DNA from: Paramacrobiotus metropolitanus
Taxonomy: Eukaryota > Tardigrada > Eutardigrada > Parachela > Macrobiotidae
Direction: 5' to 3'
Length of the DNA stretch: 64,000 nt
Assembly: GCF_019649055.1 (NCBI RefSeq)
Contig: NW_026570279.1
Location: 558,001 to 622,000, forward strand
Below, piece by piece: positions 14,367 to 50,995 of this stretch; within the stretch, counting starts at the first letter, position 1; each line of letters opens with the position of its first letter. The notes below the pieces were generated by a model that saw only the letters and a list, made by a program, of their open reading frames with translations, was not told where the DNA came from and searched no databases. Made by a program: the position numbers and the translations under genes.

Positions 14367-15179
14367 AACGCGTGATGCGGGTGACCGCTGCTTTGACCTT
14401 TTGTCGCTGAATCACTTGTGAAGTCTGCCATATTCGTTTAGCACCTTCTGCTATAAAAATGCTGCATTCGGCCGATACTCCGGTACTGCTTGACCAGCAA
14501 AAACAATCCAACATATTAACAAATCACCTTATGAAGTAAACATACAATTCAGGACAACACATCAGTTCCCATACATACAGTATAACTGCTGAAAGTGCAA
14601 AATGATTTGTTTGCTGAAAGTGTTTACGTGTCACGGACCATTGCATCCGCTTTGGCCAGGCAGATTATCATTTGCGGCACTTTCAATGTATGGACATAAT
14701 CGTCGTTATTTCTCCTAGAGTCGTTTCAAGTATCTGTTTACTACGCCGCAAAATGTCTGTACGAAAATGAATCGTCGCTGATTAACGAACTTAACGTTGA
14801 ATGTTCAGTGCTGTGCACTCGCTACATTCGAGTAACTTGTAACGAACATAAGGAATTGCTCGTTTTTCTTCAACCAATATAACAATAACAACATTTATAA
14901 TTATTCCCGTAAAAAAAACAGATACTGGGTACAGTAACGACTGCAACAAAATCCCATCCAATCCTCACAAAGACACGCGGAAAGTTTTACAAACTGCACT
15001 ACATTATAATGAAATTTGAGCTTTCCTTATAATGAAAATTGAGGACAATTAAAGGGTTATTAAAAAATTATTCAACAGCTTCGCAAAAAGTGAAAAAAAA
15101 CGCCGCTGCCAGACTGGACGACTCAGCAGTCTGCAGCAAAACAACAACAGGACTTTAGCAAAACAATACCATGGCTTCA

Positions 15180-24039: not shown

Positions 24040-25980
24040 GGTATGTCTGGTCAGTAGTGGTAGCTCGATTACTTGCTTACCTAACCGGTTCTGTTTGCCG
24101 GACAGTAGTGGTAGCTTGGTACTCAACAGTAGTGGTAGCTACTCAACAGTAGTGGTAGTGGTACTCAACAGTAGTGGGAGCTTGGTCACTCGTTCACCTA
24201 ACGGGCTTTCTGGGCCCGTTAGGTGGTGGTGGCTCGGACAGCAGTGGTAGTTGGGTCACCCGCTCACCTAACGGACTTTCTGCGCCGGACAGTAGTGAAA
24301 GCTCGGTCACTCGTTTCACCTCGGCTTCGCCTCCGCGTTTCTCGTGGTCGACGGCCGGTTTATTCGAATTTCTATTTTAATCATTTTTATTCGTATTTTT
24401 GGCTCTGTTAACTGGACTATAGTGGTAGACTTGTGGTTCGGTCACTCATGTAAACTGTACAATGATGACAGCTCGGTCACTCGTTCACCTACCGGGCTCT
24501 CTGCACCGGACATAAGTGATAATTATAACTCGGTCACTCGTTCTCTAACGGGCTTTATACACTGAACAATAGTGATAGCTCGGCCATCCGCTCACCTACC
24601 GGGCTCTGTGCACGGACAGCAGTGGTAGCTCGGTCAGCGGTTTCCGCAGCGGAATTTCTGCACCGGACAGCCTCGGCCTCGGCAAGAAACAGCCTTGGCT
24701 TCGCCTCCGCGTTTCTTGTGGTCCACGGCCACTTTATTTGATTTCGAATGGATATTCAATAGTACATTTAACATCTCATTATACATTTAACATCTCATTT
24801 AACATCTCATTATCTCATCTCATCTCGTATTTTGTCGAAACGTGATCGGTAAATGCAATAGGGCAAAAACCCCGATTTTATATATATAGAATTCATGATT
24901 CTCTCAAATTACTATTAGTTCTCTCAAATGATTCTCCCAACCTCAACTTGATGATTCTCGGTAGTGGTAGCTCTGGCATTTGTTCCCCTAACGGGCTCTA
25001 TACATTGGACAGTAGTGGTTGCTCGGTCACTCGTTCAGCTAACGGGCTGTGTACACCGAACAGTGGCACTCGGTCACTCGTTCACCTAAAGGGCTCCATA
25101 CACCGAACAATGGCACTCGGTCTCTCGTTCACCTAACGGGCTCTGTATACGGAACAGTAGTGGTAGCTTGGTCACTCATTCAACTAACGGGCTCTGTACA
25201 ACGGACAGCAGTGGTAGCTCGGTCTCTCGTTCACCTAAAGGGCTCCATACACCGAACAGTGGTAGCAACTGAATTCATACAACTGAATTCACGATTCTGT
25301 GGACGTTGCGGGATTCACCATTCTGAATTCACGATTCTGAATATACGATTCTGTGATGAATCTGGGTAGTGTCAGCTTGGTCCCCCGTTCACCTAACGGT
25401 CTCCGAACACTGGACAGTTCGGTCACTCCATTACCGGACGCGATCTGTGCACTGGACAGTACCCGTAGCTCGGTCACCCGCTTACCCAACGGGTACCGCA
25501 CCCTGTACAGTACCGGTAGCTTGGTCAATCGTTCGCTTAACGGTCTCTGTGCACTGGACAGCACCGAGGGCTCGGTCACCCGCTCACCTAACGTGTCCCG
25601 CACACTGGACAATACCGGTAGCTTCAATCGCGGTAGCTGGACAATACCGGTAGCTGGACAATACCGGTAGCTTCAGTGGTAGCTCGTTCACTTGTCCACC
25701 TAACGGGCTCTGTACACCGGACAGCAGCGGTAGCTCGGTCACTCGTTCACCTAACGGGCTCTGTGCACCGAACAGTGGTAGCTCGTTCCGGGCTTTGTGC
25801 ATCGGACAGCAGACAGTAATGACAGCTCGGTCAACCGCTCACATTGCTATCCATAGTGGTAGTCCAGTCACTCACTGGCTTTACTGGAATATAGTGGTAT
25901 TTCGGTCACTCGCTGAACTAACGGTTTGTGAACTGAACAGTGGTTGTAGTACAATCACAGTAGTGATGGTGTAGCGATAG
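24040..25980. repeat. minisatellite of roughly 50-bp units
   Basis: Dozens of degenerate units built on AGTGGTAGCTCGGTCACTCG followed by TTCACCTAACGGGCTCTGTA and CACCGGACAG. Unit length is about 48-52 bp, with shorter derivatives (GTAGCTGGACAATACCG near 25635-25660) and two copies of the CTCGGCTTCGCC repeat inside. Frames across it give PNGL and SSVTRS-type repeats that are by-products. It lies within intron 4 of SMYD copy 6. Confidence 0.85.
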
Positions 25981-27656: not shown

Positions 27657-27989
27657 TGTGAGCGCAGGCGTACATGCGTACACCCTCGCTTTGGCAGTCT
27701 GTTGTGTTCTGTTGCGCGCCCGCCTTACGCGAGGCGGAAGCACGCTGTTCTGCACGCACCCGCACTGTGTGGCGGCTACGTGCGCATTTTCCACGCTTGC
27801 TGCAGTCAGCAATGCGGAGTTGTCAATTGGGAAATTCTATCGAATTTAGTCTTGTCATAAATTCCTAGCAGTCACGCCATTTCTCGCTTTCTGTAGCGTA
27901 GGCGCATTTATAGCACTGCCAGGCTTTTTGGTAGGCAGAATCACGTCAATTCTGTTCCTACGCGTGAACCTTCACCAGGTCCACGCTCA
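27657..27989 (+). repeat. 5' LTR of the giant element
   Basis: Starts TGTGAGCGCAGGCG, ends about CACGCTCA just before the primer site. Matches 45752-46087 over the whole length with about 7% difference and a few small indels. Confidence 0.8.
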
Positions 27990-27991
27990 TA

Positions 27992-28003
27992 TGGTAGCAG
28001 GAG
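27992..28003 (+). promoter_or_regulatory. primer-binding site, initiator tRNA-Met type
   Basis: TGGTAGCAG immediately follows the LTR. Its nine bases are complementary to the 3' end (with CCA) of animal initiator methionine tRNA. The match weakens after the ninth base. Confidence 0.6.
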
Positions 28004-29426
28004 CTGTGTTTCTCCAGATAATCTCTGAAGTTTTTCCCGTCCAATTGACGAGGAGTTGAGGAAGTCTCCCGCGAGAAAGGGCTCGCGTACGGTTTGGTGG
28101 CGAAGGGAGCGTTTGGATCCACTCAGCAGACTTGAAAACGGTGCATCTCTACTGCGTAGAGTGCACTGTATCAGTCTGACGCGGTCAGGGCTACTGTCGT
28201 AGCTTTGACTGGAGGGGCACAAGCGCCGAGAAAGATCGCCAGAAGAGGCAGAAGCCCGAAGGGGGGCACGAGTGGGCAAGCCACTTTGGACTGCGGGTGT
28301 GGAGTTTCAGGTGCTACTATACTGCAGTAGAGAGCACACATAATACGCGCTCTCCCAAAAGGGTGATCGAGCGCCCCTGTCGTTGCCAACGTCAAGGCGC
28401 GACAGAAGACCCGCAGCCAGCAAGTCTTTTGGTCGACGCACCGCTGCGTCCTGCTGATACGAAGCAGAAGGGGTGTCGGCTGGCCCAGGAGAAGTCAGCT
28501 AAATCGCTGGAGGAGCATCAGGAGGATTCGCGGAAGGACGCAGGATCGATTTCTGGACTTGGGAGACGAGCAGGTCAGAATTTCGGTTATTAATTTTACC
28601 ATTGGTCGATAGGTAAAATCTTCAATTTTCATTCGTCGGTTCTGAGCTGAGCAGAGAAGTAGGCGGTTTTTTTGCGCACGGCGCGCTAGCAAAAATTTTC
28701 GGTTTTGGTCGTGACGTCTCTCTGCCTTATAAACAGAAAAACAACGCTTCTGATTGGTCGGTTATTCGCACTGTGATTGGCGCAGCAGCGTAGCTAAAGT
28801 TAGCTAGGAAATCAGCCAATTAAAAGCTGAGATTTTGTAAGGAGGCGGAGTTTTTGCGCACGACGCTCAAGATCGTGACGTAACTAGCTAAGAAAATTTT
28901 TTGAACTGACTGACGAGAAGTTGACCTTTACCAAAAATTTCGACGAGAATGATGACCTTTATTAAAAGTTGAAAGCTGAATAAATAACGTTTATTCGAGG
29001 AAATCTAAGTTGATTTCTCAATAAAATCGAAAAATATTCTCAGGTTAGACGTTCTAGACCGAAGTTGATAGTGACCTTTAAACAGAAAAGTTCTGAAGGA
29101 AAAAGTGACCTTTAACGCGACGGAGTAAGCTATTAAGCTGAAACAGTGGGAAATTAATCTCATTTTACTAAAGGAAGTGACCTTTAAAAGGGATTCAGTC
29201 AAATTTTTTCAAAGAAAAAGTGACCTTTAGAAGGGACTTAGCACTTTTTTGAGGCAGAGTGACCTTTAGTAAAATTGAGCTGATACAAAAGAAGGTGACC
29301 TTTAGGGCAGCGCTTGTTTCTGTTTACGTGTAAAGGGGCTTACGTAGCTTAAACTAACACACGTGTCAGAAACATTATTAGCATCGTCCAAGTTATCCGA
29401 TCATCAACTCAAGTCAAGACAAAGAT
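28004..29426 (+). promoter_or_regulatory. leader of the giant element, with CCAAT-type boxes and TGACCTTT repeats
   Basis: About 1.4 kb without a convincing gene. Near 28700-28830 there are GTGACGTC, CTTATAAAC and three CCAAT/ATTGG words, a promoter-like cluster. From 28920 to 29305 TGACCTTT occurs eight times, always in the same orientation, at intervals of roughly 30-115 bases. Regulatory role is inference. Confidence 0.5.
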
Positions 29427-31300
29427 ATGGATCAAGACGGAGACGGTAATGAACCGATCTCATCAGGGTCCCAAGGAAAACGGTCAAGGGACACGGAAAA
29501 CCCGTATGAAGTGAAAAGGCAGCCGTACACACGGCCGGTTGCTCACGAAAGGGCAACTCGAGCTCAGAAGACCTTTGGGAGGAAGGACACCAGAGGCTCA
29601 GAGGCCACATACCAAACGGCCCTGAGGGAAACTCAGAATGAGAGCTCGAGCGATGGAAGTGGAGAGAACTCCGGGCGACATGCCGGAGATAACACGGTAG
29701 ACTCAGCAAAGGTCACCGATGTGAGAATGGTCACAGATGGAGAGAACAAAGATGACCTGAAGGCCGAGACCGGAGGAATGGCACGGTCGGCCGAAAAGGT
29801 CAAGGAGGATCAAACTGAGAAGGGAAATACCGAAGTCAGCCAAAAGGTCACCGAAGGTGGTGGCGCCGTCAGCAGCGACATGCTGATTGACGAAGGAAAG
29901 GTCAAACAGGATGACCTTTCGGATAACTCACTGTTCCTACAAGAACAGCTGGAAGAGAATGGTAACAGCCCCATGTCAAGTGACAAGTTCTACACTGATG
30001 ACGAGGACGAAACGACGATACGAACATCTTTCCATACGGCCTTGAAAGAAGCCAGTATAACAAAAGAGATGTTCGAAACGACCATTCAAGACAGGCTAGA
30101 AGAGACCTTCGAAGGGACGGCGTCAGGAAAGGCCGACGACCGGGACCAAAGGTCACCATCACCAAAAACATCGGTACTAAACGGATTAAAGCAACGAGTA
30201 AAGGAGCTTGAACGACTACTCGACGAGAAAGAAGAACAAGCGTTTGCCGCGATACGAGATCAACGTAACAAAACCTTTGAGGCGGAGGCCAGATTGAGTG
30301 TGACGGAGGACGAAGTGCAACACTGGAAGGTCAAATTTGAAGTCCAGAAGCAAGCCGCAGAAGATCTTAAGAAAATGGTTGAAGATCGAGACACGAGAGG
30401 AACACTCACCGACGAAGACAATGAATTGTCCGAGGAGGTAGCTGAAAGGTCACGAGAGATAGCAGAATTGAAAGGAGCGTGACCTTTTGCAGTTAAAGGT
30501 CAAGGAAGTTGAGAAGAAACGTGATGAATCCTTGTCGAATGCGACAAAATTCACAGGAAAGATCACTAGCCTTACAGCAGACAACTCCAAGTTGAAAGAC
30601 GAGCTCAAATCACTTGAAGAAAATAATAAAACGCTCCAAACAGAATTACAAGACACGAGAAAGAAGCGACACGAAGCAGAGAGCCAACGAGAGCAAGTAG
30701 CGAAGGAACTGCTCGAACTGGCAGAAAAAACGAAAACCGAATTCAAACGTATCAATGATGAAGTCGAGAACCAAAAGAAAGAAGCAAAGAAGTGGCTGAA
30801 ACAAGCACAACTTTGTGACGAACGGGTCACTGTGCTAGAGGTCGCAAATGGAGAAGGGCGAAAAGAAAACGAAAAACAAAAAGCAGAAATCATAAAACTC
30901 AGCGATGAACTCGTGGAACTGGCCACTATAGTTATGGAAAAGGATGATAAAATCAAGGAGCTTGAAACAGTCAAAGAGGAGTGCGAAGCGAGAGGAAGGA
31001 CCCTCGCAGATAGAGCGGATCGTATCACACGGTTGGAAGCAGAAGCTGATATCCTAAAAGCAGCAAAAATGGATCTCGATAAGACTCTCGATAACCGAGC
31101 AAGTACAATCCTCGAGCAAATGAGAAAGGTCACCGAAGCAAACAACGATTATGAGAAGCTCAGGAAAGACGCAAACGAAACCGTAAAGCAGCTGCAGCAG
31201 ACAGTCAAACAAAGAGAGGAAGAAATTAAAACTTTAAAACGGTCGGCAAAACAAAAGGAAGGAGAGGCAACACAGCCGGAACGGATCGAATCTCCACCCC
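29427..31300 (+). other. coiled-coil gag head (fossil)
   Basis: Begins MDQDGDGNEPISSGSQGKRS, acidic and disordered at first. From about 30180 it becomes a very long heptad-like coiled coil (VKELERLLDEKEEQAFAAI; LKDELKSLEENNKTLQTELQ; IKLSDELVELATIVMEKDDK) to about 31260. A PPPGYGE motif at about 31295 resembles a late-domain type PPxY variant, but that is speculative. Gypsy gag proteins do not usually have so long a coiled coil. Confidence 0.75.
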
Positions 31301-31689
31301 CCGGATATGGCGAAGTCCACACCGTCGAAGGTAGCTTCCATTTCCAAGCTCCCTTAAAGACGGGTACTGGCCGACGCGACGGCCATGATGAAGATAAGGT
31401 CAAAGCTGAAAAGGTCACCGACGATACTGAGTTGGCGAAGGGGCACTCAGGACCGATCGGTGGGGTCAATCCTCGGCAACAAGAAACAGGACCGAGGGAA
31501 ACAATCGTCTACAAATCTGACCATCAGCCAGACAATCATGAAGATCCACGAGTTCGCCAAAACGAGCAGGAAAGGGTAGCTCGTGAAGAGGAGAGGCGAG
31601 AAAGAGAATACCGCGCGGAATACCACGCTGAAGCACAGCGACTCCGTCGCGAAGAACGGGAATTCAGAGGTTACATGAGAGCCATGGCC

Positions 31690-32240
31690 CGGAAATCCGC
31701 GTTGATCGACTACAACGGCAACCGAGAAGCTTTACTTGGTTGGATCCGTCAGGTCAAGGAGACTCAGAAGACGTATGACCTTTCGGATGCAGCAATGATG
31801 CTGGAAGTCGCCAACGCAGTCAAAGGGGACGCGAAGGCATGGTTTGACGCGGAAAGAGAAATCGATGACGAAGAAGAGGCGGAAGAGTTAACCGTCGATG
31901 AATGGATGACAAAGTTCAAAGAACATTTCGGCGATCGTGACGAAGGGGTCAACGCCTTAAGAGAAGCAATGACGAGAAAGTTTGAGGCTGGCAAAGAAAC
32001 GCTTGACCAGTTCTACCAGGCGATCATGCGCTTCAAATCGAAACGGATCATAACTGAGAAGCAGGCCATTGGATTCCTGATTCAAGGATGTAAGAATGAC
32101 AGTGACCTTTATAAGGCACTTCGCGCACAGAAATTCCATAACCCCATGGACATCAAGGAATTCTTCCGTACATGGTCGACTGGCGAAGAAAAGTATAAGG
32201 TCACGAGAGGCAACCGAACTCAAGATGACTGTGTCATAAT
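31690..32240 (+). other. capsid-like gag domain (fossil)
   Basis: Pattern of the retrotransposon gag family: LIDYNGNREALLGWIRQVKE, then VANAVKGDAKAWFDAE, WMTKFKEHFGD, REAMTRKFEAGKETLDQFYQ and a KQAIGFLIQG helix. It forms the particle shell in active relatives. Confidence 0.85.
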
Positions 32241-32679
32241 TCGGTCAGGCCAGATCGAAGAAGTCGCGAATGGGCGACAGAACCAGTCGTACTCGGCGCA
32301 GGTACCAAGATATAACACGGAATTTCCGCCTTTAGGCACTCAAGAGGTGACCTTTGACAACGAGCGAAATGAAGGTCAGATATCGTACGCGACGATCGCG
32401 GCGATACAGACAGCGGTCCAAGAAGCGACCAAGCCTGCGATCGCGGCGATCCAAGCATCAGCTCAGCAAGCAGCAAGGCCAAAACAGAATCCACAAGGAA
32501 ACGTGCAAAGAAATGCCCTGAATGGAGGGCTTGGCGGTCAGGGAATGGCTCAAGGGAATCCGGGCTTTGCCGGCCAAGGATTCAACGGTGGCTGAGGAAA
32601 TCAAGGAAACTTCCGACCGAACCGTGGACAAGGAAATCAAGGACCACGATACGGGTCGCGAGTAGAGCGCCTGTTCACC

Positions 32680-33426
32680 ATGATCGACGGATGGGTGGCC
32701 AATAACGCGCTGACATGCCAGAACTGCATGTACGGTAACCACCACACGCAAGCGTGTTCGTTTGCGGGGACACCGTGGAATCAGAACCCCAACAGGGTCG
32801 TGTATGAAGAATGGTTGATGTTGCGTAACAATCATGGTGGATGGCGCAACGCAATGGCAAATGGTTATGTGCCACAATCACGCCAAGGTGGACGGTATGC
32901 CGGTCAAGGTGGCCAGGCCAACTACAATAATCAAGGCGGCCAGGGTAATTTCGGTGGCCAAGGAAACTTCGGCGGTGGTCAAGGTGGCCAAGGAAACTTC
33001 GCCGGAGGCCAAGGCAACTTCGCCGGTCAAGGTGGCCAAGGCGGAGGAAATGGCGGATATGGTCCGGTGAGAGGAGGCTTCCGAGGAAGAGGAAGAGGCC
33101 GTGGCGGCAATCGCGGAAATTACGGCGGTGGCCAATGGAACGGCGGTGGTCAAGGTGGCCAATGGAACGATGCTGGTCAAGGAGGCCAGTGGAATAACGG
33201 TGGTCAAGGTGGCCAGAATTTTGCCGGTCAAGGTGGCCAGGGCAATTTCGCCGGTCAAGGTGGCCAGGGCGACTTCGGCGGGCAGCAAGGCGGCTTCGTC
33301 GGTGGGAACCAGAACGGTTTCGGTCAGCAAGGCGGAGGCTTTAACTTCGCCCCGGCGAATGGTGCCGGTCAGGCGCAAGGTGCGCCGGTTCAGGGAATGG
33401 TCCAGGGAAACGTTCAAGGTCAGTAG
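32680..33426 (+). other. zinc knuckle and RGG/QGG-rich nucleocapsid region (fossil)
   Basis: One CCHC-type knuckle, CQNCMYGNHHTQAC (C-x2-C-x4-H-x4-C), at 32716-32757, followed by about 180 residues of QGGQGNF/GGQWN repeats and an RGG box (GFRGRGRGRGGNRGNYG). Such tracts bind RNA and can phase-separate. Encoded by a degenerate GGTCAAGGTGGCCA nucleotide repeat. Confidence 0.85.
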
Positions 33427-33524
33427 GCGCCGGTGAGCCTACTGATCGTCCGGAACCGAAACCACCGGATATAGAGGAGCAAGGTGCTCCGCTGCAGGCA
33501 AAGACCGCAGCGAGAAAGGGATGC

Positions 33525-34188
33525 TGCGAAAGTAACGCAAAGACCCGGAAAAGAAATCCGTGGATTCGAGAAAGTAACTCGAAATCGAGCGAAGGGGCTC
33601 ATAAAGGTCAAGAGAAGGGTTTAAAAAGATTGCCGCAAGGACGGAAGAATCTGACCGAAAGGTCACCGCAGAAAGTAACTGCGGGAAGTCAAGAAAGTAA
33701 CTTGACTCGACCGGGGCCGACCGAAAGGTCACCGCAGAAAGTAACTGCAGGGTTGACGGAAGGTCCTCAACTCTGCATCCGGGACAGCAGAAAGTAACTG
33801 CAAATCAAGAAAGTCACGAAAGTAACGTGACGCTGCAAGGACAGCAGACCCAAAGGTCACCGCAGAAAGTAACTGCGAGGAAAGGTCACGAAAGTAACGT
33901 GACGCTGCAAGGACAGCAGACCCAAAGGTCACCGCGGAAAGTAACCGCGAGGAAGAGTGAAGCAACTCTGCGAAAAGCGCAAGCTGAAAGTTCCAGCGAA
34001 GAGGATGATGAAGCACGTCATTCCAGATTTCGGAAATACCTCCAAGAGACAGAAAAGCCAACTCAAGAGAGAGCTGAAGAAGTGAAAGGTCACGAGAGAT
34101 TGCCAGTGCAGCAGACTCAAAGGTCACTGAATGAGAAAGGTCACGGTGAAGTCGCCGATGAACCGAAAGGTCAAGAAAGTAACTTGAC
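33525..34188 (+). repeat. array of 11 mini-hairpins with constant AAAGTAA loop
   Basis: Stem-loop-stem spans: 33525-33539, 33565-33583, 33666-33684, 33687-33707, 33734-33748, 33787-33801, 33813-33831, 33861-33877, 33885-33903, 33933-33949 and 34170-34188. Each is an arm of 4-7 bases, AAAGTAA, then the exact complement of the arm. At least six different arms occur (TGCG, TTCGAG, CCGCAG, GTCAAG, GTCACG, CGCGG). AAAGGTCA words alternate with the hairpins. Confidence 0.9.
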
Positions 34189-35199
34189 TCTGCGAATGGC
34201 GCAGCAAACAGTGAAACAGAGCGAAGGGGCACAGCAAGTCTCAGATGACTCTCTCGATGAGGCTAACACTCTACAACAAAAGATGGAGTGGCAAAAAGTG
34301 GCTTACAGACCGAATGGACGGCACGGTATGTGGAAACCAGTTCCTCCGCCACAAAGGTCACCGCAAGATGCGAGAATTTCCAGAGAAGCTTACTGGGAAG
34401 AAAGAGAGAAACAAGATTGGCGGATGAGAAAGCATCTCGAGGAAATGGTTAAAGCTTCACAACCGAAAGTACAAGAGTACTGGAAAGAGAAAGTCCAATG
34501 TGACGAAAATAACCGTCAGTTTTGGGAGCGGATTGAGAAGGGTGAATTACCGCCTCAGTATGGTGAGAAAGTGCCTTTACAAAGGTCAACAAATGGCGGA
34601 TTTTTCATGTCAAGACCGAAAAGGTCACCGGACTTAGCGCAAACCCCACAGAAGGAGAAGTCATACGACATGACAGAAGAAATCCGGAATGACAACGAAA
34701 GGTCACCGCCAAGAACTGACGGATTGTCATCTCAAATCGATCCAACTCGCACGAATAACGAAATTGCGAAGAAAATTACCGATTGGATGAAAGAAAACGA
34801 CCATAAGATGGTTGTGTACGAAAGGTCACCAGAGAAAAAGAATGAAGATGACAAGATGACCTTTGCGGATGAAATTACACAAGAGATAATGGCAAAGTTG
34901 CAAGAAAAACCGTCCAAAGATGTGCGCAATGAAAGGTCACAATACGAAGTTATTGCGCAAGTGATAAAAGGTCACGAGAACGCACAAGAGAAGGGTTTAA
35001 TGTGCGAAGTGGCAAAGGTCACGAACAAAGAAACCGCCGCGAAAGAGCAGACGAACGCCTTACCGAAATCAAAGCGGATAGAAAAGTTCTCAGACGTGCG
35101 ACCCGACGTACCGAAACGGATAGATCGTTGGAGCTCAAAAGGTCTGATAGAGAGCAAGCATGCTGCACCAATCCCAGTCAAGTGTCGAATAAGAGTCTT

Positions 35200-35570
35200 G
35201 AAACTCGAAGATGGAAACTTACCGAAACGGATCGAAGCTTATACACATGAAGTCAAAATTGGAAATAAAAAGGTCATGGCAATGCTTGACACTGGCGCAG
35301 AGACGTCTTTGATTTGTCAACAGTTCTGTGAAAGGAATGGCCTCCAGACTGTAAGACTACCACCGAAAAAGAAGGTGATGATCAAAGGGATCAGCGGAAC
35401 GTCAGGCTTCGAAGTAACGCACTACTGCGTAGCACCAGTGACCTTAAGAAGGAAAACGAGTCAACACTCGTTCTACGTCAGACCAGCGTCAGACGACGTC
35501 CAAGTCCTACTGGGATTCGACTTCCTCGCAAAGAAATTCGTCGTGATAGACGGACACGACGAGGAAGAAA
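35200..35570 (+). other. retroviral-type aspartic protease (fossil)
   Basis: AMLDTGAETSLICQQFC (catalytic DTGA at about 35287) and, about 75 residues on, VQVLLGFDFLAKKFVVID, the usual second strand motif. Preceded by about 450 residues of charged, disordered sequence rich in ERS, KVT and KGH words that come from AAAGGTCA. Confidence 0.9.
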
Positions 35571-36339
35571 GGGAAACTGAAGCTGAAGACGATGAGCCGA
35601 AATCATCCGCAAAAGTTAATGCAGGAAAGGTCACCGAACTTCAACCAAGAAATAATTCGGGGCAGACGGCTATCCCAGTACCAGAGGCACAGGGATCGAA
35701 AGATAACAAACAAAATGAGAATGGTGAAAATCTACTCCCAGTTCCAGAGGCACAGGGATTAGAAAATGCTGGAAAAAGCAAAAGGTCACCGAAGTCTAAG
35801 GAAATCAAAGGTCACCAACGATGAAACAAATCAAGATAATGCAAGCAGAAGCACTGATTGCAAAGAAACAGTCGCTAGTGCCAGGAATGGAGTGGTCAAG
35901 GCTACTCCCAGTACCAGAGGCACTGGGCACGAGAATGGTTGGGCCCAGGACAGAGCCAGGACTGATGAACAGCGACGAAAGAGCACTATTCTCGGAAATA
36001 CGAGATCAAGCCATAAAGCAACTGGATGCAAGGAAAACGGAGCATGGTGCTCAACATACTTTCGAACCACGTGATAAAACAAGAGGGCGGATGAAAGGTC
36101 GAGACACGCGCCTGCGCAAAGAGGTAGCAGAGAGTAGTCGTCGTCTTACTTCCGAACCACGCTCTGCAGATGAAGAAATCGAAGTCATCGAAATATCATC
36201 AGATAACAGCGTAATCGAAATCGAAAAAGATGACGAATGGACAGATACCGATTCCGGAGAAACGGATAAGCGAGTTATCGTCCGTCCCGAACCGAGACAA
36301 CGGATGCCGGAAGGGAACAATCGCGTCATTTCCCGCAAA

Positions 36340-37090
36340 CCAAGAGAATGGACTGCGGAAGAGAGAGCAACCTCTTGCCATCACGATTGGCACGACAGCG
36401 ATGACCTTTCGATAGCGCGACCTCAAGAAAGATGTGCAAAATGCATGCAAGAAATGACACAAGATGACCTTTCGGAATGGCCGAAATGCAATGCAGCAAT
36501 TGCACGTCATAAAAGACAAGAAGAGAAAGAGGTCAAGTCGATTATGCGAACACTTCCCATGCCGGAGCTGTCAAAAGCAACTTACCTTTGGCAATGTTAT
36601 CGAGAATGGTTATCGGTAGTCAAGAACTACATCATCTCCAGAGGGAAGTGGCTCCATCATTGGCAGCAAGAAGCGGACAACTTCATTCCCGAAAAAGCGG
36701 ATAAAAGCGACCCATGGTATACAAACCCGATTACAAAGCTCGACAGAGAAAGGCGACGAGCAATGGAAGAGAACGAAATATGGGAACAAGCTAGGGTTGA
36801 CTTATTCTGGGAATTCAGAGTCAATTACCTATGGAAAGGTCAAGGACGAGCGATCATTTTCCCAATCGGACTCGGCACAGTAGTGTACGAATTATTTGAC
36901 CTTTACCAGGCCTGCCTCAAAAAGGGAAATTTAAGAGAATGGAACAAACAATGGGGCAAAATCCTCGAAGAAGTACCGATATATACAGGAGAAATCCCTG
37001 AATTAAAGGTCACGCAAAAAAGACGCGAACTTGGATTATTTGGCTATCCGAGAAAAAAGAAGGTGACCTTTGCACCAGACCCAGATGGAG
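36340..37090 (+). other. unassigned domain between protease and RT (fossil)
   Basis: After a cysteine/histidine cluster (CHHDWHD ... RCAKCMQ ... WPKC) comes a tryptophan-rich, well-ordered looking stretch of about 180 residues (YLWQCYREWLSVVKNYIISR; DLFWEFRVNYLWKGQGRAII; VVYELFDLYQACLKKGN). Standard gypsy pol has no such module here. No family recognised. An acidic NGTSAEE repeat follows (about 37213-37370). Confidence 0.55.
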
Positions 37091-38599
37091 TGGAGTATCC
37101 CGAAAGAGGCGGAGATACTTGGTGCATGTATGAGACGGTACCGAACAATGACTGGACTACAGAAGAACTGATGGCAAATTGCGTCTTTATCGGCGATAAA
37201 AGACCGAAAGGTCACGGCACAAGCGCTGAAAAAGAAAACGGCACAAGCGCCGAAGAGGAAAAGAACAAAGATAACGGCACAAGCGCCGAAGAAACCAAGG
37301 AAAAAGAACAAGAGGTCAGCACAAGTGCCGCTCAAGAAAACGGCACAGGCGCCGAAGAAGAGGAACCAACGCACGGCGTATGAGTTGGCTCAGATGATCA
37401 AGGAACTGAACCAGGCGTTTCGGGATAAGGAAAACGGAATCCCGGTAACAGAGGCAAAAAAGGCTCAAATGTCGCCGCAAGAAAAGAAAGCAGCGTCGTT
37501 AGTGGCTTCACTACAAAGGTCACTCGGTAACGGTGAGGAAGGGCCACCAACCGAGAAGAACGAAAGGTCACTAAACGCGATGCTGGAAGAAGAGCCAGAA
37601 AGGTCAGTTCCGAAAGTTGACGAAAGGTCACCTGAAACTGGCGAGGAAGGGCCGCCAGTTGGAAAAGCAAAAAGGTCACAGAATACCGCTCAAGCAGATG
37701 ATAGCTCGGAAGACCAAGAAAGGGATAGGTCACGAGCAAGGATTCGCGCAACACGAACAAATCCGAGGATAGCTGCACGAAACGGACGAAAGTCCAAGGA
37801 AACGGACAAACCTCTGCCCGAAAAACGAAAAGCTAAAAAACTTAGCGCTTCCAAGGATGAAAGCGATGACCTTTCAACAGAAAGTGAAGACGAAGGCGTC
37901 GATGAGCGACCAATCGAGAAAAGAAGCAAAGGTCAAGAGCTTGAAGCTAACCACAGCAGCGAATCCGACTCGGAATTCTCGAGCACGAGCGATAACTCGA
38001 CCACTTCTGAAGATTCTGGAGTGAGTGACCTTTCGGATCAAGAAGATCTGCTGGACCTTGATGAAGACGATGAAAAGAATGAAAAACAAGAGAAAGAGAT
38101 CATCGTTCGAAGAATTAAAGTACAGAAAGCAAGAATCCCAGAGCGGGCGATCAAGGTTTACAGCGACCAAAGAGTCAAGCTGAGACCAAACCTCGGCACA
38201 CGCGTAAAGGTCAAGATGGGCGCTCATGTACCACGGAATCAGAAGCTGATGTATACAGCAACTCCTCAAAAGGATAATGAAGTCCAACCGAGAACGGGAG
38301 TCACGGACCATAACGGCACTCGATTTGAAATTATTATCGAAAACCGAAGCAAAAGCCGAAAGACCGTAAGGAAGGGCCAATTTCTCGGTTACGTAGAACA
38401 TTACGAACACCTTGAGAACGTAAAGGTCAATTCGGCTACCGTCGTGAAAAACATACTTGAAGATCCTGAAGTGGACGCAAAGACGAAAGAAGAACTGAAC
38501 GATATCATTGAAAGATTAAAGTTAGGACCAGACCTAACTGAAGAACAAAAGAATGACGTGCGAAACGCATTTTGGGAGTTTTGGAAAGTTCTCCCCACG

Positions 38600-39340
38600 T
38601 CAAAGAAACCGTACGGCGATGTCAAAGGGGTAACGCACACTATTGACACAGCCGATGCCAAACCGGTTAAATGCAATCCCGCAAGAACAAGTTGGAAAGG
38701 TCGGGAATTCATCACAAAGCACATCGAAGAGATGTTACAGCAAGATGTCATTGAACCATCCGATGCGGAATGGAGTTTTCCGGTCGTATTGGCCGCGAAG
38801 AAGAATGGCGACGGAACTATGGGAACAAGATTCTGCGTCAATTACATTTTGCTGAACAAGCTGACGAAAAAGAACAACTATCCACTGCCGAACCCAGATG
38901 AACTGCTTGACGCATGCGCGGGAAACAAGTACTACGGCAAGATGGACTTACAAAGTGGCTTCTGGCAGATCCCAATGGATCCAGCGTCGAAAGATAAGAC
39001 AACTTTCGTCACGCAGGACGGAATGTTCCGTTTCAAAAGAATGCCTTTTGGAGTCTGCAATGGACCTGCGACCTTTCAACTCTGCATGGATAAAGTCTTG
39101 TCGAACGCAAAGAGAATGGGATGCGTTTTCGGCTACATCGATGACGTATCTTCGCAGGAAGACCTGGGAGATCTTCATGCAGAACTTAAGGAACGTCCTC
39201 AAAGTTTGGTTGACGCAGGCTTCACAATTAAGCCGACAAAATGCGAATTCGGTATGCGTGAAATGGGATTCCTGGGGCATATCCTCAGTGAGAATGGTAT
39301 CAAAATGGATCCCGAAAAGGTCATGGCAGTTAACGGCCAA
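38600..39340 (+). other. reverse transcriptase (fossil)
   Basis: Ty3/gypsy-type RT: FCVNYILLNKLTKKNNYPLP, YYGKMDLQSGFWQIPM, RFKRMPFGVCNGPATFQ and the active-site YIDD at 39134-39145, then GFLGHILSENGI. An upstream dUTPase- or connection-like stretch at 38150-38420 (PERAIKVYSDQRVKLRPNLG; GTRFEIIIENRSKSRKTV) resembles the spacer seen before RT in many gypsy elements. Confidence 0.93.
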
Positions 39341-39479
39341 AAGAAACCGACAACTGAACGGCAGTTGAGGTCATTCCTCGGATTAGCGAACTATTACCGA
39401 AAGTTCATCCTTGGATACGCGCAAAAGACGGCGCATCTCTACGAATTGCTAAGACACGACAAAAACATCAAAAGAGATT

Positions 39480-39930
39480 GGTCAGCAGTCCATGACCAAG
39501 AATTCAATGACCTTAAAGAAGCGCTATGCAAGGATCCAGTATTAAAGAAGTTCGACCCGACAAAGCCGACAGTGATCGAGTGCGACGCATCAAAGGAAGG
39601 GCTAGGTGCGATCTTGTCCCAAGATGGACATCCCATTGCATACGCGAGCCGCGTTTTGCATGGAGCGGAAAAGAATTACGGAGTAACAGAATGGGAATGT
39701 CTGGCGGTAGTCTTCGCCGTCAGAAAGTTCAAGTCGTACATCGACTACCCGAATTCACAGTGAGAACGGATCACAAAGCTTTGACGAACCTCTTTTAAGA
39801 TCGGAGTCGAACAAATCATGCATGAATCCCCAAGATTGACAAGATGGGCATTGGCACTGCAAAGTCACCGATTCAAGATTGAATACAAGCCGGGCAAATA
39901 TTGTGACAACGCAGATGCCCTTTCAAGAGC
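39480..39930 (+). other. RNase H (fossil)
   Basis: TVIECDASKEGLGAILSQDG, PIAYASRVLHGAEKNYGVTE, ECLAVVFAVRKFKSYI and the later KYCDNADALSRAP segment are the hallmarks of the gypsy RNase H that removes template RNA. Confidence 0.9.
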
Positions 39931-40629
39931 GCCAATTGAAGGTCCCACTTGCAACGAAGAAGAGTATGATGAAATCCCAAACTTCGAAGATTACAAGAAC
40001 GAACTCAACAGAGAAGAACCTCCGATTGAAGTTTGGCAACTTTTCGTACAATTAGCCGAAGAAAGGGAAGAACGGCTGAAAGCCGACATGAGAAGGGTTG
40101 TGTCGGAAGAAAAAGAAAGCGGAGACATGCGCTCGAGCATAAATGAAGCAGAGCGTAGTCGTCGTCTTACTTTCGAACCCCGCTCTGCTACCAAGATAAA
40201 GGTCAACAGAGTGAGAAAAGAAGCATCAGAACGAAAAGATGGAAAGGTCACGGAAGATGGTCAGAAAAGGGTAGACCAGGATGACCTTCGCGAAGCAGAA
40301 ATCCTCTCCGAATACATTCCGGAAGAGTGCCCCATCAGATTGCTGAGATTCCCAAAGAAAATTGAGAAAGGTCACAAGCCTCTTCCGAGATGCAAGGTCA
40401 TCAAAGATTGGAACGAACTCAGCACGGCAGTAGTCCGCATCGTCAACCTCCAAGGAGACGAAGAAGAAGAAGATGATACGAATTTGCAGTTGCGGAATAA
40501 GCAGCTAAAAGATCCGCACTTGGCAATGATCATCGATGAATTGGAGCACCTGCAAGACGCAGACAAAAGGTCAAAGTTTGAGACGCATTACCAGTTATGG
40601 AACGGCATACTGTATCGCGTCAAAGACCA

Positions 40630-41760
40630 GAAAGGAAGACTGGAAAGGACATATGTAGTACCGCTGCAAATGAGAAGGGCTATCATCCATGCACTGCATG
40701 ATGAAAAAGCAGCAGGTCACCTCGGCTTTGAAAAGACGCTGACAGCGATCCGGCTCAGATATTACTGGGACCGTATGAGCACGGATGTCAAGAATTACAT
40801 CCTCGCGTGTCAAGGATGTCAGTTCATAAAGACGCCGAGAAAGTGTCCACTGGAAAGCTCCAAGAGATCAAAGTCGGTCATCCATTCTTCAGAGTCTATG
40901 CGGATCTGAAAGGACCCCTACTTCCAACGAAGAAACGAGGATATAAATACATCGCGGTCTTCATCGACCAGCTGACGAAGTATGTTATAGCGGAGCCAAT
41001 GAAAACAGCTACTGCAAAGGAATTCGCAAAGATCTTTGTGAAGCATGTAATTCTGGTGCACGGAGCGCCACATATCCTCCATACGGATCGCGGAAGGCAT
41101 TTCACCGCAGAAGTACTGAAAAAGGTCACCAACGTGTTCAAAATCAAACACACGTTTGGAACAGCATACCATCCTGAAGGTCAAGGACAGGTGGAAAGGC
41201 AGATGCAGACCATCAGTGATGGATTGTCGCAGTACCTAAAAGCGGGAAATGAAAGGAAGTTCAACAAGTATCTTCCATACGTCATATCGGCAATGAACCG
41301 TGCAGTACATGCAACGACGGGGTACTCAGCGTACTACATGCTTCACGGGAGAGAAATGACCATGCCAGAAGACGTAGTGACGAAGACGAACGTTCCTGAC
41401 GACTACGGTGCACCAGATGAATGGGTCGAAACCATGAAAAGGAACTTGACCTTTTCAGAAGAAGTGGCGAAGTGCAACATCAAAGATGCTTACGAAAAGC
41501 ACGCGGAAATCTACAACAAGAAGAAGTCAGAGCCGCAATTCAAAGTCGGAGATCGAGTCTTAATTAGACTCCCGAAAGATACAAAGCAAGGAAAGAAGGA
41601 AAATCAATCCGACTTCAAGAATAAATATGACAAAGTGTGGAAGATTCTCAGTTTTCCGAGACCGAACGAAGTCGAGGTCATCGAGCAAGATGCGGTGAAG
41701 GAACCGGACCTACGAGTCGTTTCGGTGGATCGTCTGAAACCGTGGCATCCACCGTTACCG
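40630..41760 (+). other. integrase: HHCC zinc domain, DDE core and C-terminal part (fossil)
   Basis: Zinc domain HALHDEKAAGHLGFEKTL ... YILACQGCQFIK (about 40690-40830). Core residues are in VYADLKGPLLP, HTDRGRHF and GQGQVERQ, giving the D, D, E triad between about 40895 and 41200. The C-terminal part (PQFKVGDRVLIRLPKDT ... VVSVDRLKPWHPP) follows to about 41760. The zinc domain and core lie in two overlapping frames in this copy. Confidence 0.92.
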
Positions 41761-42567
41761 GTTCAGAAAGGTCAAGCTGAAAGGGCAGCTTCGGAGATAA
41801 TTGAGAAAGGTCAAGATGAAGCAGAGCGTAGTCGTCAGCATACTTCCGAACCACGCTCTGTACCCGATTTGGCAGAAGAGCCAAACGAGGCAGAAGAGCC
41901 AAAAGAGGCAGAAGAGCCCAAAGAGGCGGAAGAGCCAGTTAAGAAAAAGAGAGGACGACAGAAGAAAGAGATTAAAGACTTTGAGACGCCAGTCACGATG
42001 AAGCTTAATCAAGAAGCGGGGAACTTGACCACGATTGAGCAAAATGAAAGGTCACACCGAAATGAGGATAAAGAAAGCGCAGAGCATGGATCTCAAGTGG
42101 CGCCCACTTTCGAACCACGCTCCGCTACTAATGTCAGGGATGACCTTTCAAGAGCGAAAATGGATGAGCCTGCTTGCAGAGTAGCAGAGCGTAAACCTCA
42201 AGATACTTTCGAACCATGTTCTGCTACCAGCGACAAAGATGACCTCTCAAGAGCGGAACAAATAAAAGCCGTCAAAGAAAAAGCCGACCAACTTGGCCAA
42301 CGGATCGCGAACGAAATTGAGAAGCGAAAGGTCAAGAAAACGAAGAAAACTCCGAAGCCGACTCCAGAACAGATTCTGAGAGGAGAAGTCCAAGACGAAG
42401 ATGAAGCCGACAAAGCATTACTTGATCGGATAACTAAAGGACGAAAACAAATAAACCCGAAAGTCAGGCTTATTGGAGTTTATGATATAATGACCGGAAC
42501 ATGGGACGGCATAAAGGTCATCAGAAATAAACCCGCTAATCGAAGTCATTTCCGATCACGCCGTTGA
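41761..42567 (+). other. repeat-rich tail after integrase (fossil)
   Basis: Charged low-complexity region with EEPKEA repeats (41878-41940) and three copies of the palindromic AERS...FEPRSA word (41821, 42078, 42184). No enzyme motif. Confidence 0.7.
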
Positions 42568-43383
42568 ATGAAAATCGCTCATGAACGATTGGCGCGAAAC
42601 GAAAGAGAACGAAAGGATCAAAGAGCGAGTGAAACACTTAAAGGTCATCAGAATTCAGCGGGAAGCTCAGCCGGGGCGGAAGGTCACCCGAGCTCAAGGT
42701 TACAGAGTAAGGAATTATTGACTTCGCTGAAAGTTGCTCATGAGAGAATGGTACTGAGCAGTTAAGGAGAAAAGGTTCACAAAGCGATCGAGGCAGAAAG
42801 GTCATCAGACTTTAGCCAAAACGTTGGAAGAAAAAGTCATCAGACTTAAACCGGAAAGCTGGCAGCTAAAGGTCAGCAGAAATTGCAGCGGGGGGAAGGG
42901 TCACCTGTGCTCAAGCACGAAGAAGAAGCGCCTACTTTGAAGACTTTGATGGAAAAAGACGTAGCACTCATTCAGAAGCAAAGGAGGACTGAAAGGTCAT
43001 GGTGCTAATGAAGCAGAGAAAGGTCACCATACATCAGCAAGAGCAAAATGTGGGAGGAAGGACCACCACACGAGAAAAAGCAGTCAGAGGGAGAAGCAAA
43101 TGAGCAGACCGTAGTTCTCAAATTGCTTTCGAACCACACTGGAAGAAGAGTAGAATTATGAAGGGAGCTAAGCGATGGGCTAAGATGAGAAAGGTCACCC
43201 ATACAGTTGAGAATGGTTAAGCTAAAGAAGGATGACAAAGGTCATCATCAAAGAGCAGCGAAAAGTTTCAGCTCAGCACTGAATAGCCTTGTTATCATAG
43301 GCCTAAAGATAGACGTTGGAAAATGAAATCAGTGAAAGGTCACGGGACTTACAATTGTTGAGATTGCAGGTTGAAAGGTCAGA

Positions 43384-44405
43384 ATGGCTGAACGGAGCCA
43401 ACCTCATCAGAAGGCAGAGAATGGACAAAGACCATCGATCAAAAAAGATACCGGCGACCCGTTGACAAATTACAACGAGGATTGTCCGGATTGCAAGCGC
43501 AACAACATTCTTTCAGGTGAACGATTCCCTTGTTGGGAATGCGTGGTCGCCGTGCCGATGCCAAATCAACTCCTGGTAATTCCGCAGGAAGCAAAAAGAG
43601 GCAACCTAGATGTATTTCGACACCTGGTCAGAAGAAAAACGTGGCTGAAACTATCGCCCGAAGATAGAGTGATTTTGGAGGATAAATACCGAATGTGGGT
43701 AGGACGCAGACCTGGATGGGACGTCACCCTTGAACCTCCTAAAACTGCGGAAGCGAATGCGTTTAGAAAGCAAATATTGCAAGAAAAGCGTGAAGCAGAA
43801 GAAAGCGTTTGAAAGAAAGAAAGAAAGCTGCGGCAGAGAAGGGTTTAGCCGATGCAGCTAAAGGTCATGCGGGACTTGCAGCACCCGTTTCGGACGCGAT
43901 TTTTAAGAAACAAGACGTACAGGAGGCGATTATACGCGAATCACTCATCCAGCAATTGGACATCATCTTTAAGGATCCACTCTCACTAACAAAAGAGGAA
44001 CATACAATATTCCTGCAAGAAAAGGTCAACCTGACGGAAGGAGGCCGATGGTCGCAAGTCATCAAAATTTTGATCGAGGACAAAATTGAGAACATGCGCA
44101 AGTTCCTCATGCAGCAAAACGAAATGACGGAGACCGAAAGAAATTTCAAGATAGACGAGTTCAAACGACCGAAATCACCGCCGAGAGAAACGTATCAGTC
44201 GGGCTTGGAAAGGTCAGCCGACAGAAATGAAAGGTCACACGTCTACGAAAGGTCATCCGATCATTCTCGAAAAAGGTCACGAGAATCAGAAAGGTCACGC
44301 GTAGGCGAAAGGTCAACCAATCATCCACGAGAAAGGTCACGGGACTTAGAAAGTAAGGATGGTTTACGCAAGAAAACATTTGATTTGCATTCAGCGCAGA
44401 GGTGA
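43384..44405 (+). other. accessory region after integrase: zinc-ribbon-like and ERS-rich frames (fossil)
   Basis: The first part carries CPDCKRNN and FPCWEC, a C-x2-C pair arrangement like a small zinc ribbon, then RRKTWLKLSPEDRVILEDKY. The second part ends in an ERS repeat tail (NERSHVYERSSDHSRKRSRE) produced by seven closely spaced AAAGGTCA words (44205-44335). Neither matches a family I know. Additional genes downstream of integrase are unusual for gypsy elements without an envelope, and no envelope-like membrane protein is visible. Confidence 0.6.
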
Positions 44406-45751
44406 CCGAAACCAGCACAGTGTAGCTAGCAGCCGGAGCGAAGGAGACGAGCTGCAAGAGAGGGGAATGGAACCTCGAGATCGAACGTCTGATCAGAATG
44501 AAAAACAAAGACGTTTCGATCGGAACCGCGACGATGGTTCAAATGATCAGTGATGACCTTTAGGGCATCGCTGATGTGCTAGTTACGGCCATCAGTCGGC
44601 AGCACGAGAATGGTAACGAAGGTACAGTATTAGGGCGAAGGAGACATAACGTATTGAATTGTCATACCGTTTGTGTATTGTTGTTTGCAGAACTTTGTTG
44701 CAGGGATCAATGTGATCTTTAATATGGGGAGTTACGGAGGTCATCCGGCCCTCGAAGCAGGAAGAGTAACGGCGTTAACCGGCCTTCCTCATTACATTTA
44801 AACGTCACTTCTAGAGTGTAGTTGCGGCCTACCTAGTCGGCACACTCTTAAGGAATGTCAGAAGCCACAAGGGTGAAAAAGAGAAAGAGTTCAAGAAAAT
44901 AGGGGTAAAAACTTTCAGATGTTGAGGTTACGGCGACAACCGGCCTCAGAAGAGAGGAGTTACGGCGTTAACCGGCCCTCGAACCTGGTAAGGAAAAGAA
45001 GAAAGGTGCGCGTCAATTGGCACTAAAAGAAAGGAAAGGATGTGCGACAGAAGAAAATGGTTGAAAAAGATGGATGACCTTTACAAGGGAGGCAAGCAGA
45101 ATTGCTTGAAAGCCAAAAATCGGCTAAGTTCCTCCATGACCTTTAATATGGAACTTACGAAGGGAAAATGGATGACCTTTTGGGATCGTCACTGCCCAAT
45201 TGAATCGCACATCAGAAAAGAAAGGATGACCTTTGAGAACTTCACTGCTCAAGAGAGTCATCGAGAAAAAGAGAATGACCTTACCAGGGAGGAAGCATCA
45301 AGCTTGTCTTTCAAGACGTCCCTCCATGTCTACGAGGAAGAATCTCATTTTGCAGAAGTCGTACTTGATACGCGAATTATCCAAAGAGGAAGCATCAGTA
45401 TTGCAAAAAGTCGTACTTGATACGCACCTTATTCCTTAAAGCGGATCTCTCATTGTGATGAAAAGATTGCTCAACAGAGCGGAATGGACCAAAGCGGATT
45501 ACGGTTGACAGGACCCAGTGACCCTTAGGAGTCGGAGGATCCTAGTCGTTTTGATAATGAATTCTGTTGATATTTTTTACTGTTTTTACTTTTGTTTCGA
45601 GATCTCTTTATTCACACATGTAATTGGAATTTGTGATGTTAAAAGGAGATTAAATCTCGATGTTTTATTAATCGCACAGACGAGCCGTCAAGGATCCCAA
45701 GGAATTGGACGTGGATTTGCTTCGACGGAGCTCAGCCTCCTCCCAGAGGCA
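44406..45751 (+). other. 3' untranslated tail of the giant element
   Basis: No convincing gene. Contains the GTTACGG family, five TGACCTTT words (44550-45232), all in that orientation as in the leader, and a duplicated CTTGATACGC phrase near 45362 and 45416. No textbook polypurine tract precedes the LTR. Confidence 0.6.
44573..44978 (+). repeat. six copies of a GTTACGG...CCGGCC word in the 3' tail
   Basis: Copies start at about 44582, 44731, 44765, 44821, 44927 and 44959. The best form is GTTACGGCGTTAACCGGCC. The ends are constant and the middle six or seven bases vary. Confidence 0.8.
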
Positions 45752-46087
45752 TGTGAGCGCAGGCGTACATGCGTACACCCTCGCTTTGGCAGTCTGTTGT
45801 GTTTGTTGCACGCCCGCCTTACGCGTGGCGGAAGACATGGTGTTCTGCACGCACCCGCATCTGTGTGGCGGCTACGTGCGCATTTTCCACGCTTGCTGTA
45901 GTCAGCAATGCGGAGTTGTCGATGAGGAAATTCTATCGAATTTAGTCTGTTCATAAATTCCTAGCAATCACGCCGTTTCTCGCTTTCCGTAGCGTAGGCG
46001 CATTTATAGCATTGCTAGGCTTTTTGGTAGGCAGAATTCCGTCAATTCTGTTCCTACGCGTGAACCTTCATTGGGTCCACGCTTTCA
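45752..46087 (+). repeat. 3' LTR of the giant element
   Basis: Direct repeat of 27657-27989 with about 7% difference, starting TGTGAGCGCAGGCG and ending near CACGCTTTCA. Confidence 0.8.
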
Positions 46088-50168: not shown

Positions 50169-50350
50169 CGGAAGCGTCCACAGTGTGAGTTCGTTTAGCG
50201 GTGCTTTTACCAGCTATTTATTCCGTCACGACGCGTGACCTTTATCGAACAGACACCAGTGTCGTACACTGATTAACTTGATTGCTTTTATCGTAATCGT
50301 TTGTTGTTGCTGCGGAATATTTTTTTTTTCCTGACACGTCGTCAACAATC

Positions 50351-50995
50351 ATGTCCACCACCGAGTCAGGGACGACGAAAGTCGGTGAAACGCAAGACAG
50401 CGCGAATCGTAACATTATGTTAGATTCAAGAGCGCTGGCCACACAATTTTCCAACCTTTGTATCGGTACGGATATGAGGCCACCCCTCTACAGTGGACGT
50501 GCTGGTGAAGACGTCGAGCAGTGGGTGCGCCGGTACAAAGTGATCGTTGCTGCCCTGGAGTGGGACGATGCCAAGGCGCTTCGTCAGCTTCCGGCTTACT
50601 TGGATGGATTTGCCGCAACATGGTGGTACAAGGTGAGCGAGGACGGAGAGAAGAAGCCGTTCGCTACAACGAAGTTGTTCCTGGAAGCCTTAGTCAAGCG
50701 CTTCCAGTCCAAAGATTACTGCACCCGTCTCAAACGACAGTTACGTGACCGAAAACAGGACCCCGACGAGCCACTCGAAGATTACTACAATGATGTTTTG
50801 GCAATGTGTGACCGCATCGACCGCGACATGGACGATGATGCCGTCATCACTCGGCTCCGAAATGGTCTCCTTCCAGAATTTTGTCAGCGGCTTGCCATGA
50901 GCACAGCCAAAACGCCTATGGAGTTCCTTACGGATATGCAGCGAGTTTCACACGTACTGTATTTGGAGGCCAAAAACAGTGCGTATGATGACTAG
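50351..50995 (+). other. gag-like frame of the small element (fossil)
   Basis: Begins MSTTESGTTKVGETQDSANR. The core matches the retrotransposon gag pattern (YSGRAGEDVEQWVRRYKVIV; ATWWYKVSED; FLEALVKRFQSKDYCTRLKR; DEPLEDYYNDVLAMCDRID). Not closely related to the gag of the giant element. Confidence 0.85.

Follow-up and report, generated by a model that had tools for sequence, protein, structure and literature searches.

We describe an array of 11 short hairpins that share the loop AAAGTAA on stems of differing sequence, within an 18.4-kb long terminal repeat (LTR) element of the tardigrade Paramacrobiotus metropolitanus. The element occupies positions 27657-46083 of the window, by which we mean the whole 64,000-nucleotide stretch analysed (558001-622000 of contig NW_026570279.1, within a genome of 169.8 Mb). 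Our results, from sequence comparison and modelling, suggest that these are RNA hairpins of the sense transcript that may be read through their loop, most likely by the nucleocapsid of Gag for packaging or assembly; we give this reading a probability of about 0.4.

Pairing and folding of the array

The heptamer AAAGTAA occurs 26 times in the window against 13.3 expected. All 11 plus-strand occurrences within 33529-34176 are flanked by perfect Watson-Crick stems of 4-7 bp, which differ in sequence (Table 1), whereas each of the remaining 15 has a stem of 0 or 1 bp. The closing G-C pair is the sole stem position constant among the 11 hairpins, and all other stem positions vary. A preliminary description of this DNA had reported eleven hairpins with differing, paired stems and a fixed loop; we recovered the same stems between the same limits (33525-34188). 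The description held that its proposal would be refuted were the pattern common in unrelated DNA, which is not so for the 15 other sites of the window, none of which is a hairpin, while exact matches of two of the hairpins, searched for across the genome, fall solely in loci fetched as copies of the same family.

When right arms were reshuffled among the nine distinct window sites, the observed pairing was reached in none of 20,000 trials; in another copy of the element (L055), it was reached in 1 of 20,000. The 11 hairpins are not independent because hairpins 7-10 share a 72-base tandem duplication, whose two units (hairpins 7 and 8 versus 9 and 10) differ at three bases, two of them forming a compensating pair in hairpin 10. 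Three of the 11 stems are just 4 bp long. The fold of 33520-33980 has a z score of -7.45 relative to 100 dinucleotide shuffles. In the computed ensemble, 9 of 11 hairpins of the window form with a probability of 0.85 or more, the others being those with loops at 33529 (0.32) and 33738 (0.04), and 10 of 11 in L055 form at 0.92 or more; loops are unpaired at 0.91-1.00 in both copies. With a span limit of 100 bases, the two GTCACG hairpins (33819 and 33891) drop to 0.45 in the window and 0.69 in L055. A search against Rfam found no match above the gathering score in the window and two chance-level matches in 33380-34250, and a tRNA search found none.

Related families and coding constraint

Relatives of the element fall into three families, which we term f1 (the family of the window copy), f2 and f3. 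Reverse transcriptase (RT) matches were scored at 115 of 1556 candidate places, with family membership incomplete; 14 of these were full-length at 91-100% identity (f1), one was partial at 93% and the rest lay at 79-89%. Twenty array regions came from this last group, of which 13, with three earlier loci, make up f2 and seven make up f3. An earlier genome listing covered about 100 of 341 places, and its 30 loci, replaced by longer ones, are not counted. We compared 35 f1, 16 f2 and 7 f3 loci and tabulated arm pairs for the 60 commonest. Downstream of the array, the linker is 72% alike between f2 and f3, against 56.5% between f1 and either of them.

The f2 and f3 arrays lie at the same place as that of f1 but carry other loops, namely AATGGTA, AATCGGA, AATGGAA and a 9-base TA....GAT, on stems that include CGCAG, CACAG, CGCGG, CAGCAG, GATGGC, GACGGC and ACGGT, each with its complement. 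The main 7-base loops of the families fit G-AANNNNA-C. AATGGTA has a stem of at least 5 bp at 32 of 36 sites in f2 and of at least 4 bp at 15 of 17 in f3. Compensation is clearest in f3, where stems covary and none of 20,000 shuffles reached the observed pairing. One site, GQE..LT, is clearly homologous across all three families and present in 54 of 58 loci; its stem is GTCAAG/CTTGAC in 27 of 31 f1 and 15 of 16 f2 copies and GTCAG/CTGAC in 7 of 7 f3 copies, the f3 difference being a change from an A-T to a G-C pair through two synonymous substitutions. PQ-type and GQE-type hairpins have one common loop in f1, unlike f2, where they have AATGGTA and AAACAGA respectively; thus, within f1, loops agree across differing stems and frames.

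Stems that change without compensation in other copies had been named beforehand as evidence against a functional fold, and such stems do occur. Across the 35 f1 loci, 275 of 309 AAAGTAA have a stem of at least 4 bp and 34 have less, and most of the rarer f1 arm pairs listed occur in a single copy and differ by one change. Such changes are as would be expected of copies decaying after insertion. Taken with the absence of the pattern at the other window sites, the outcome for the two refuting conditions is mixed.

The coding frame provides a second line of evidence. Fourteen f1 copies have a pol frame without interruption across the array (the first 330 codons), and in all 14 of them two frames are used for AAAGTAA, one giving (Q)KVT(A) and the other (E)SN; the third frame, which gives a TAA stop, is excluded by the selection of open copies. 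As the two frames give unlike peptides, the peptide is not the conserved thing. Open frames reach 3124 codons among the relatives listed. Shuffles that permute synonymous codons, keeping protein and codon use, gave means of 0.10-0.57 AAAGTAA hairpins per open f1 copy, and at most 4, compared to the 4-11 observed. For hairpins of any loop, the counts observed and in codon shuffles, with the z score for minimum free energy, were 10 versus 2.1 (-6.6), 11 versus 2.4 (-7.1) and 6 versus 2.0 (-5.6) in the f1 copies L055, L049 and L036; 7 versus 1.2 (-2.9) and 6 versus 1.2 (-4.3) in the f2 copies L073 and L051; and 7 versus 3.6 (-2.6; largest shuffle, 7) and 8 versus 2.3 (-4.0) in the f3 copies L079 and L082. 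These counts come partly from duplication and so are not independent events. Two control stretches of pol had 1 versus 1.1 (z = -4.4) and 1 versus 0.8 (z = -0.6). The proposal of a functional unit in the form of a folded nucleic acid, which had been drawn from compensatory change within one locus, gains support from mixed frames, codon-preserving shuffles and the arrays of related families.

Explanations for the fixed loop

The reading we favour rests on a division of each hairpin into two parts. The invariant part, GAAAGUAAC, comprises the 7-base loop and the closing G-C pair; the remainder of the stem would need only to pair, and its letters could drift freely in complementary pairs. One type of protein that recognised the loop on any stem would then bind several hairpins together. 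The Gag nucleocapsid, with its CCHC knuckle and Gly/Arg-rich tail, is the likeliest candidate for this reader, and the array may provide, on the genomic RNA, a multivalent signal for packaging or assembly. It is placed in a spacer of Pol between the predicted frameshift site and the protease, in which changes to the protein would be tolerated. A fixed loop and closing pair, a free stem and a placement blind to frame argue that a protein probably does read the loop. That the Gag of the element itself is this reader is more tentative. Because copies from each of the three families have a Gag with a CCHC knuckle, the most economical proposal is packaging or assembly through Gag, with a host reader next. 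We infer that the hairpins fold in vivo and that selection acts on the RNA.

Several observations weigh against this reading. The arms of the f2 PQ-type hairpins are near invariant and tell little about covariation; the shuffle test is weak for them, as 197 of 20,000 shuffles reach the observed pairing and 3 of 24 distinct sites have at least 4 bp. For the 9-base loop in f2 and f3 together, 19 of 31 distinct pattern sites pair over less than 4 bp, some being chance matches to the pattern. The pair at GQE..LT is broken in 4 of 31 f1 and 1 of 16 f2 copies. One site present in 20 of 35 f1 loci has CGCGG/CCGCG in 17 copies, CGCAG/CTGCG in 2 and a broken stem in 1, and this swap may be due to conversion by a neighbouring repeat rather than to independent change. 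The f1 hairpins are clustered within 0.65 kb, whereas packaging signals are usually dispersed, and one of the pol controls folds at z = -4.4 although it has no excess of hairpins. As f2 and f3 are sister families, either loop type could be ancestral.

The main rival, which we nevertheless consider unlikely, is that the array is a mutational by-product, in which a hairpin was multiplied by tandem duplication, its arms were kept complementary by palindrome correction, without selection, and its loops are alike only by descent. Template switching in reverse transcription (quasi-palindrome correction) would copy one arm onto the other. The presence of the 72-base duplication inside the array, the variation of hairpin copy number between elements, the near-invariant f2 arms and a site that switches both arms and loop jointly, as conversion would, are all in keeping with such an origin. 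Correction would not, however, fix nine loop and closing bases while other stem positions change; f1 hairpins that differ in stem and frame share the loop, and neither of the control stretches taken from the element's pol has an excess of hairpins. This model explains the duplication and perhaps the correction of arms, but not the agreement of loops in f1 when their f2 homologues differ from each other.

It is also conceivable, although improbable, that a host RNA-binding protein reads the loop and that the element's RNA is localised, stabilised or translated under the control of the array. By analogy, this would follow the logic of Smaug- or Roquin-type readers, with a loop on any stem, and a changed host partner might explain why the loop differs by family. 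Three families with different loops in one host would, however, require several readers or a tolerant one, and Gag, through its knuckle, already offers an RNA binder specific to each family. A role in translation, slowing ribosomes past the -1 frameshift site or aiding the folding of Pol, is very unlikely: the array begins 57 bases past the predicted pseudoknot, and stem-loops in mRNA can reportedly pause ribosomes, but pausing should need stability, not one loop sequence, which leaves loop identity unexplained. Least credible, and already disfavoured, is selection on peptide repeats (PQNGTA, EMANKMPSQV) with hairpins arising by accident of codon choice, since although the listed f3 loops stand in one frame per copy, giving similar peptides, and the hairpin count of L079 lies within its codon shuffles, f1 uses two frames with unlike peptides and shuffles fall short of the observed count in the tested f1 and f2 copies and in L082. 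We rejected a DNA-binding dimer on an inverted repeat, as here the half-sites vary and the spacer is fixed, which we take to be the opposite of such sites.

If Gag does read the loops, a family loop code might follow, although we think this doubtful. Each family's array, coded in Pol and renewed fast, would be the word for its own Gag, and RNAs would be sorted by loop; we propose GAAAGUAAC as the word in f1 and GAAUGGUAC and GAAUCGGAC as those in f2 and f3. If this is true, the coding frame bends around an RNA word and not the reverse. Apart from a few models, the way in which LTR retrotransposons choose the genomic RNA that is their own is poorly understood. One loop on many stems in two frames separates RNA constraint from protein constraint, and the presence in a single host of three related families that differ in their loops offers a ready-made system for studying loop-by-Gag specificity with short synthetic RNAs. 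The literature that we consulted, including PMC6281560 and PMC11071193, gave no description of this element, and we do not claim that it is absent from print.

The host element and comparison with known systems

By its two LTRs and its order of Pfam domains along 33701-42567, protease, RT, RNase H and integrase, the element is a Ty3/gypsy-like LTR retrotransposon, and one listed match carries the name Ty3-gypsy subclass (P0094). The array had been placed between gag and pol, which proved incorrect: it sits within the pol (-1) frame, downstream of the frameshift signal that we predict, and the protease domain follows about 1 kb later. In the window copy, the pol frame is lost between hairpins 5 and 6 through a length difference.

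Table 1. Features of the element in the window
Feature	Position	Strand	Details and basis
5' LTR	27657..27987	+	93.1% identical to 45752-46083 over 333 aligned columns (blastn of element ends)
gag region	29382..33426	+	ORFs (open reading frames); several frames in window copy; CCHC zinc knuckle CQNCMYGNHHTQAC, Gly/Arg-rich tail near end
Predicted slippery heptamer GGGAAAC	33405..33411	+	gag frame (CAG GGA AAC); sequence; also in copies of f1, f2, f3
Hairpin over gag stop	33418..33447	+	11 bp (one G-U pair), 6 bases past heptamer; sequence, fold
CACCGG, predicted pseudoknot	33463..33468	+	complements loop bases 33430-33435 (CCGGTG); complementarity only
Hairpin 1	33525..33539	+	TGCG-AAAGTAA-CGCA; loop 33529; stem 4 bp
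Hairpin 2	33565..33583	+	TTCGAG-AAAGTAA-CTCGAA; loop 33571; stem 6 bp
Hairpin 3	33666..33684	+	CCGCAG-AAAGTAA-CTGCGG; loop 33672; stem 6 bp
Hairpin 4	33687..33707	+	AGTCAAG-AAAGTAA-CTTGACT; loop 33694; stem 7 bp
Hairpin 5	33734..33748	+	GCAG-AAAGTAA-CTGC; loop 33738; stem 4 bp
Hairpin 6	33787..33801	+	GCAG-AAAGTAA-CTGC; loop 33791; stem 4 bp
Hairpin 7	33813..33831	+	GTCACG-AAAGTAA-CGTGAC; loop 33819; stem 6 bp
Hairpin 8	33861..33877	+	CGCAG-AAAGTAA-CTGCG; loop 33866; stem 5 bp
Hairpin 9	33885..33903	+	GTCACG-AAAGTAA-CGTGAC; loop 33891; stem 6 bp
Hairpin 10	33933..33949	+	CGCGG-AAAGTAA-CCGCG; loop 33938; stem 5 bp
Hairpin 11	34170..34188	+	GTCAAG-AAAGTAA-CTTGAC; loop 34176; stem 6 bp
pol ORF piece	33701..35824	+	aspartic protease (Pfam PF13975, E=1e-9, residues 517-610), domain start near 35249
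pol ORF piece	37172..39763	+	RT and RNase H; PF00078, PF17919
Integrase (H2C2 and rve)	39785..42567	+	two frames in window copy; PF17921, PF00665
3' LTR	45752..46083	+	blastn partner of 5' LTR, 93.1% identity

The heptamer, stem and CACCGG at 33405-33468 together form a predicted -1 frameshift pseudoknot. The heptamer fits X_XXY_YYZ in the gag frame, and the 11-bp stem, which by the fold follows after 6 bases and so within the 5-9 bases expected of such signals, covers the gag stop (TAG, 33424-33426). The full pattern was matched in 22 of 35 f1, 6 of 16 f2 and 7 of 7 f3 loci; CACCGG lies 15 bases past the stem in all 35 copies matching this pattern, which itself required CACCGG.

Other features of the element were also recorded. 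Its sense strand (28000-46000) is purine-rich, with an AT skew of up to 0.44, and the flanks are not. The commonest 8-mer of 27765-46083 is AAAGGTCA, with 71 occurrences on the plus and 27 on the minus strand in 18.3 kb, and 14 on both strands of 65.7 kb of other sequence (2.4 expected by composition and 10.3 by a 6th-order model). It occurs in all three frames of f1 pol, at 17-27 per 2.3-2.4 kb versus 2.5-4.7 in codon shuffles, and is identical to the NBRE site of NR4A nuclear receptors. Its presence in both orientations suggests a DNA-level site. The opposite orientation, TGACCTTT, accounts for 8 of 8 octamers in the leader (28922-29296) and 4 of 4 in 45075-45227, and these could, judging by complementarity, pair as RNA with AAAGGUCA of the coding part. 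In 33650-33935, GACCG or GACCC precedes AAAGGTCA at several places, giving GACC-GAAA-GGUC-type tetraloop hairpins just upstream of array hairpins. A viral link was discarded: the IMG/VR contig concerned (L091) has a single CCGCAGAAAGTAACTGCGG hairpin, lacks AAAGGTCA and contains long ORFs of phage-like appearance, and we take it as a chance 18-mer match.

A kissing partner for the AAAGUAA loop was sought as GUUACUUUC, which does not occur in the element. One UUACUUUC, complementary to the array loop, lies at 40167 inside a different repeated hairpin, a CGAACC-type repeat in which UACUUUC occurs three times (0.28 expected for the 7-mer TTACTTT); as this concerns one repeat family, it is only a hint of loop kissing. 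The CGAACC repeats, at 36063, 36153, 40174, 41847, 42111, 42210 and 43130, account for 7 of the 12 CGAACC of the element. In several cases, pairing within GCAGAGCGT...ACTTTCGAACCACGCTCTGC can give a stem that reaches 9 bp and closes a long loop, somewhat tRNA-like in appearance.

Elsewhere in the window, there is a direct-repeat cluster around GGTCACTCGTTCACCTAACGGGCTC at 24041-25774, its spacing often about 51 bases, a second, different retrotransposon gag ORF at 50297-50995 (PF03732, E=1.2e-10) and a host F-box ORF at 62200-63132. An animal host fits the 63 matches to the nuclear-receptor zinc finger, while a search for SL1 RNA, as a sign of a nematode host, gave no match, nor did it give any in the control genomes. 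Several similar ORF pieces on the minus strand at 5400-16900, e.g., RRGRRLFIHAVESIPQYTG, are perhaps a local gene family; cysteine patterns in some of them resemble the MYND zinc finger.

The tardigrade element shares LTRs, a Gag with CCHC knuckle and the domain order of its Pol with Ty3/gypsy elements that use a Gag-Pol -1 frameshift, but differs in its length of 18.4 kb and in a spacer of about 600 codons from frameshift site to protease, the first part of which holds the array. Smaug- and Roquin-type readers recognise a loop on a stem of free sequence; their sites lie in mRNAs of host genes and have other loops, whereas the tardigrade array belongs to a retrotransposon and its reader is a proposal. 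Small RNAs of the RsmY/RsmZ type titrate a protein through repeated hairpin loops and, like the tardigrade array, present one loop motif in multivalent form, although the array lies in the coding frame of a eukaryotic element and matches Rfam RF00195 at a chance-level E of 2.9. Multiple packaging signals, stem-loops with a shared motif in the genomic RNA, are described for MS2 and other single-stranded RNA viruses (PMC6281560). The likeness lies in the repeated use of a stem-loop that keeps its recognition motif while the sequence around it varies: in the tardigrade array, computed folds give a shared loop motif on several stem-loops, and stems vary while pairing is kept, weakly so in f2. The difference lies in dispersal over the genome and in uniformity, as the array, known from sequence alone and from a retrotransposon, has all 11 sites, identical in loop, clustered in 0.65 kb (33525-34188), with the other AAAGTAA of the element stemless.
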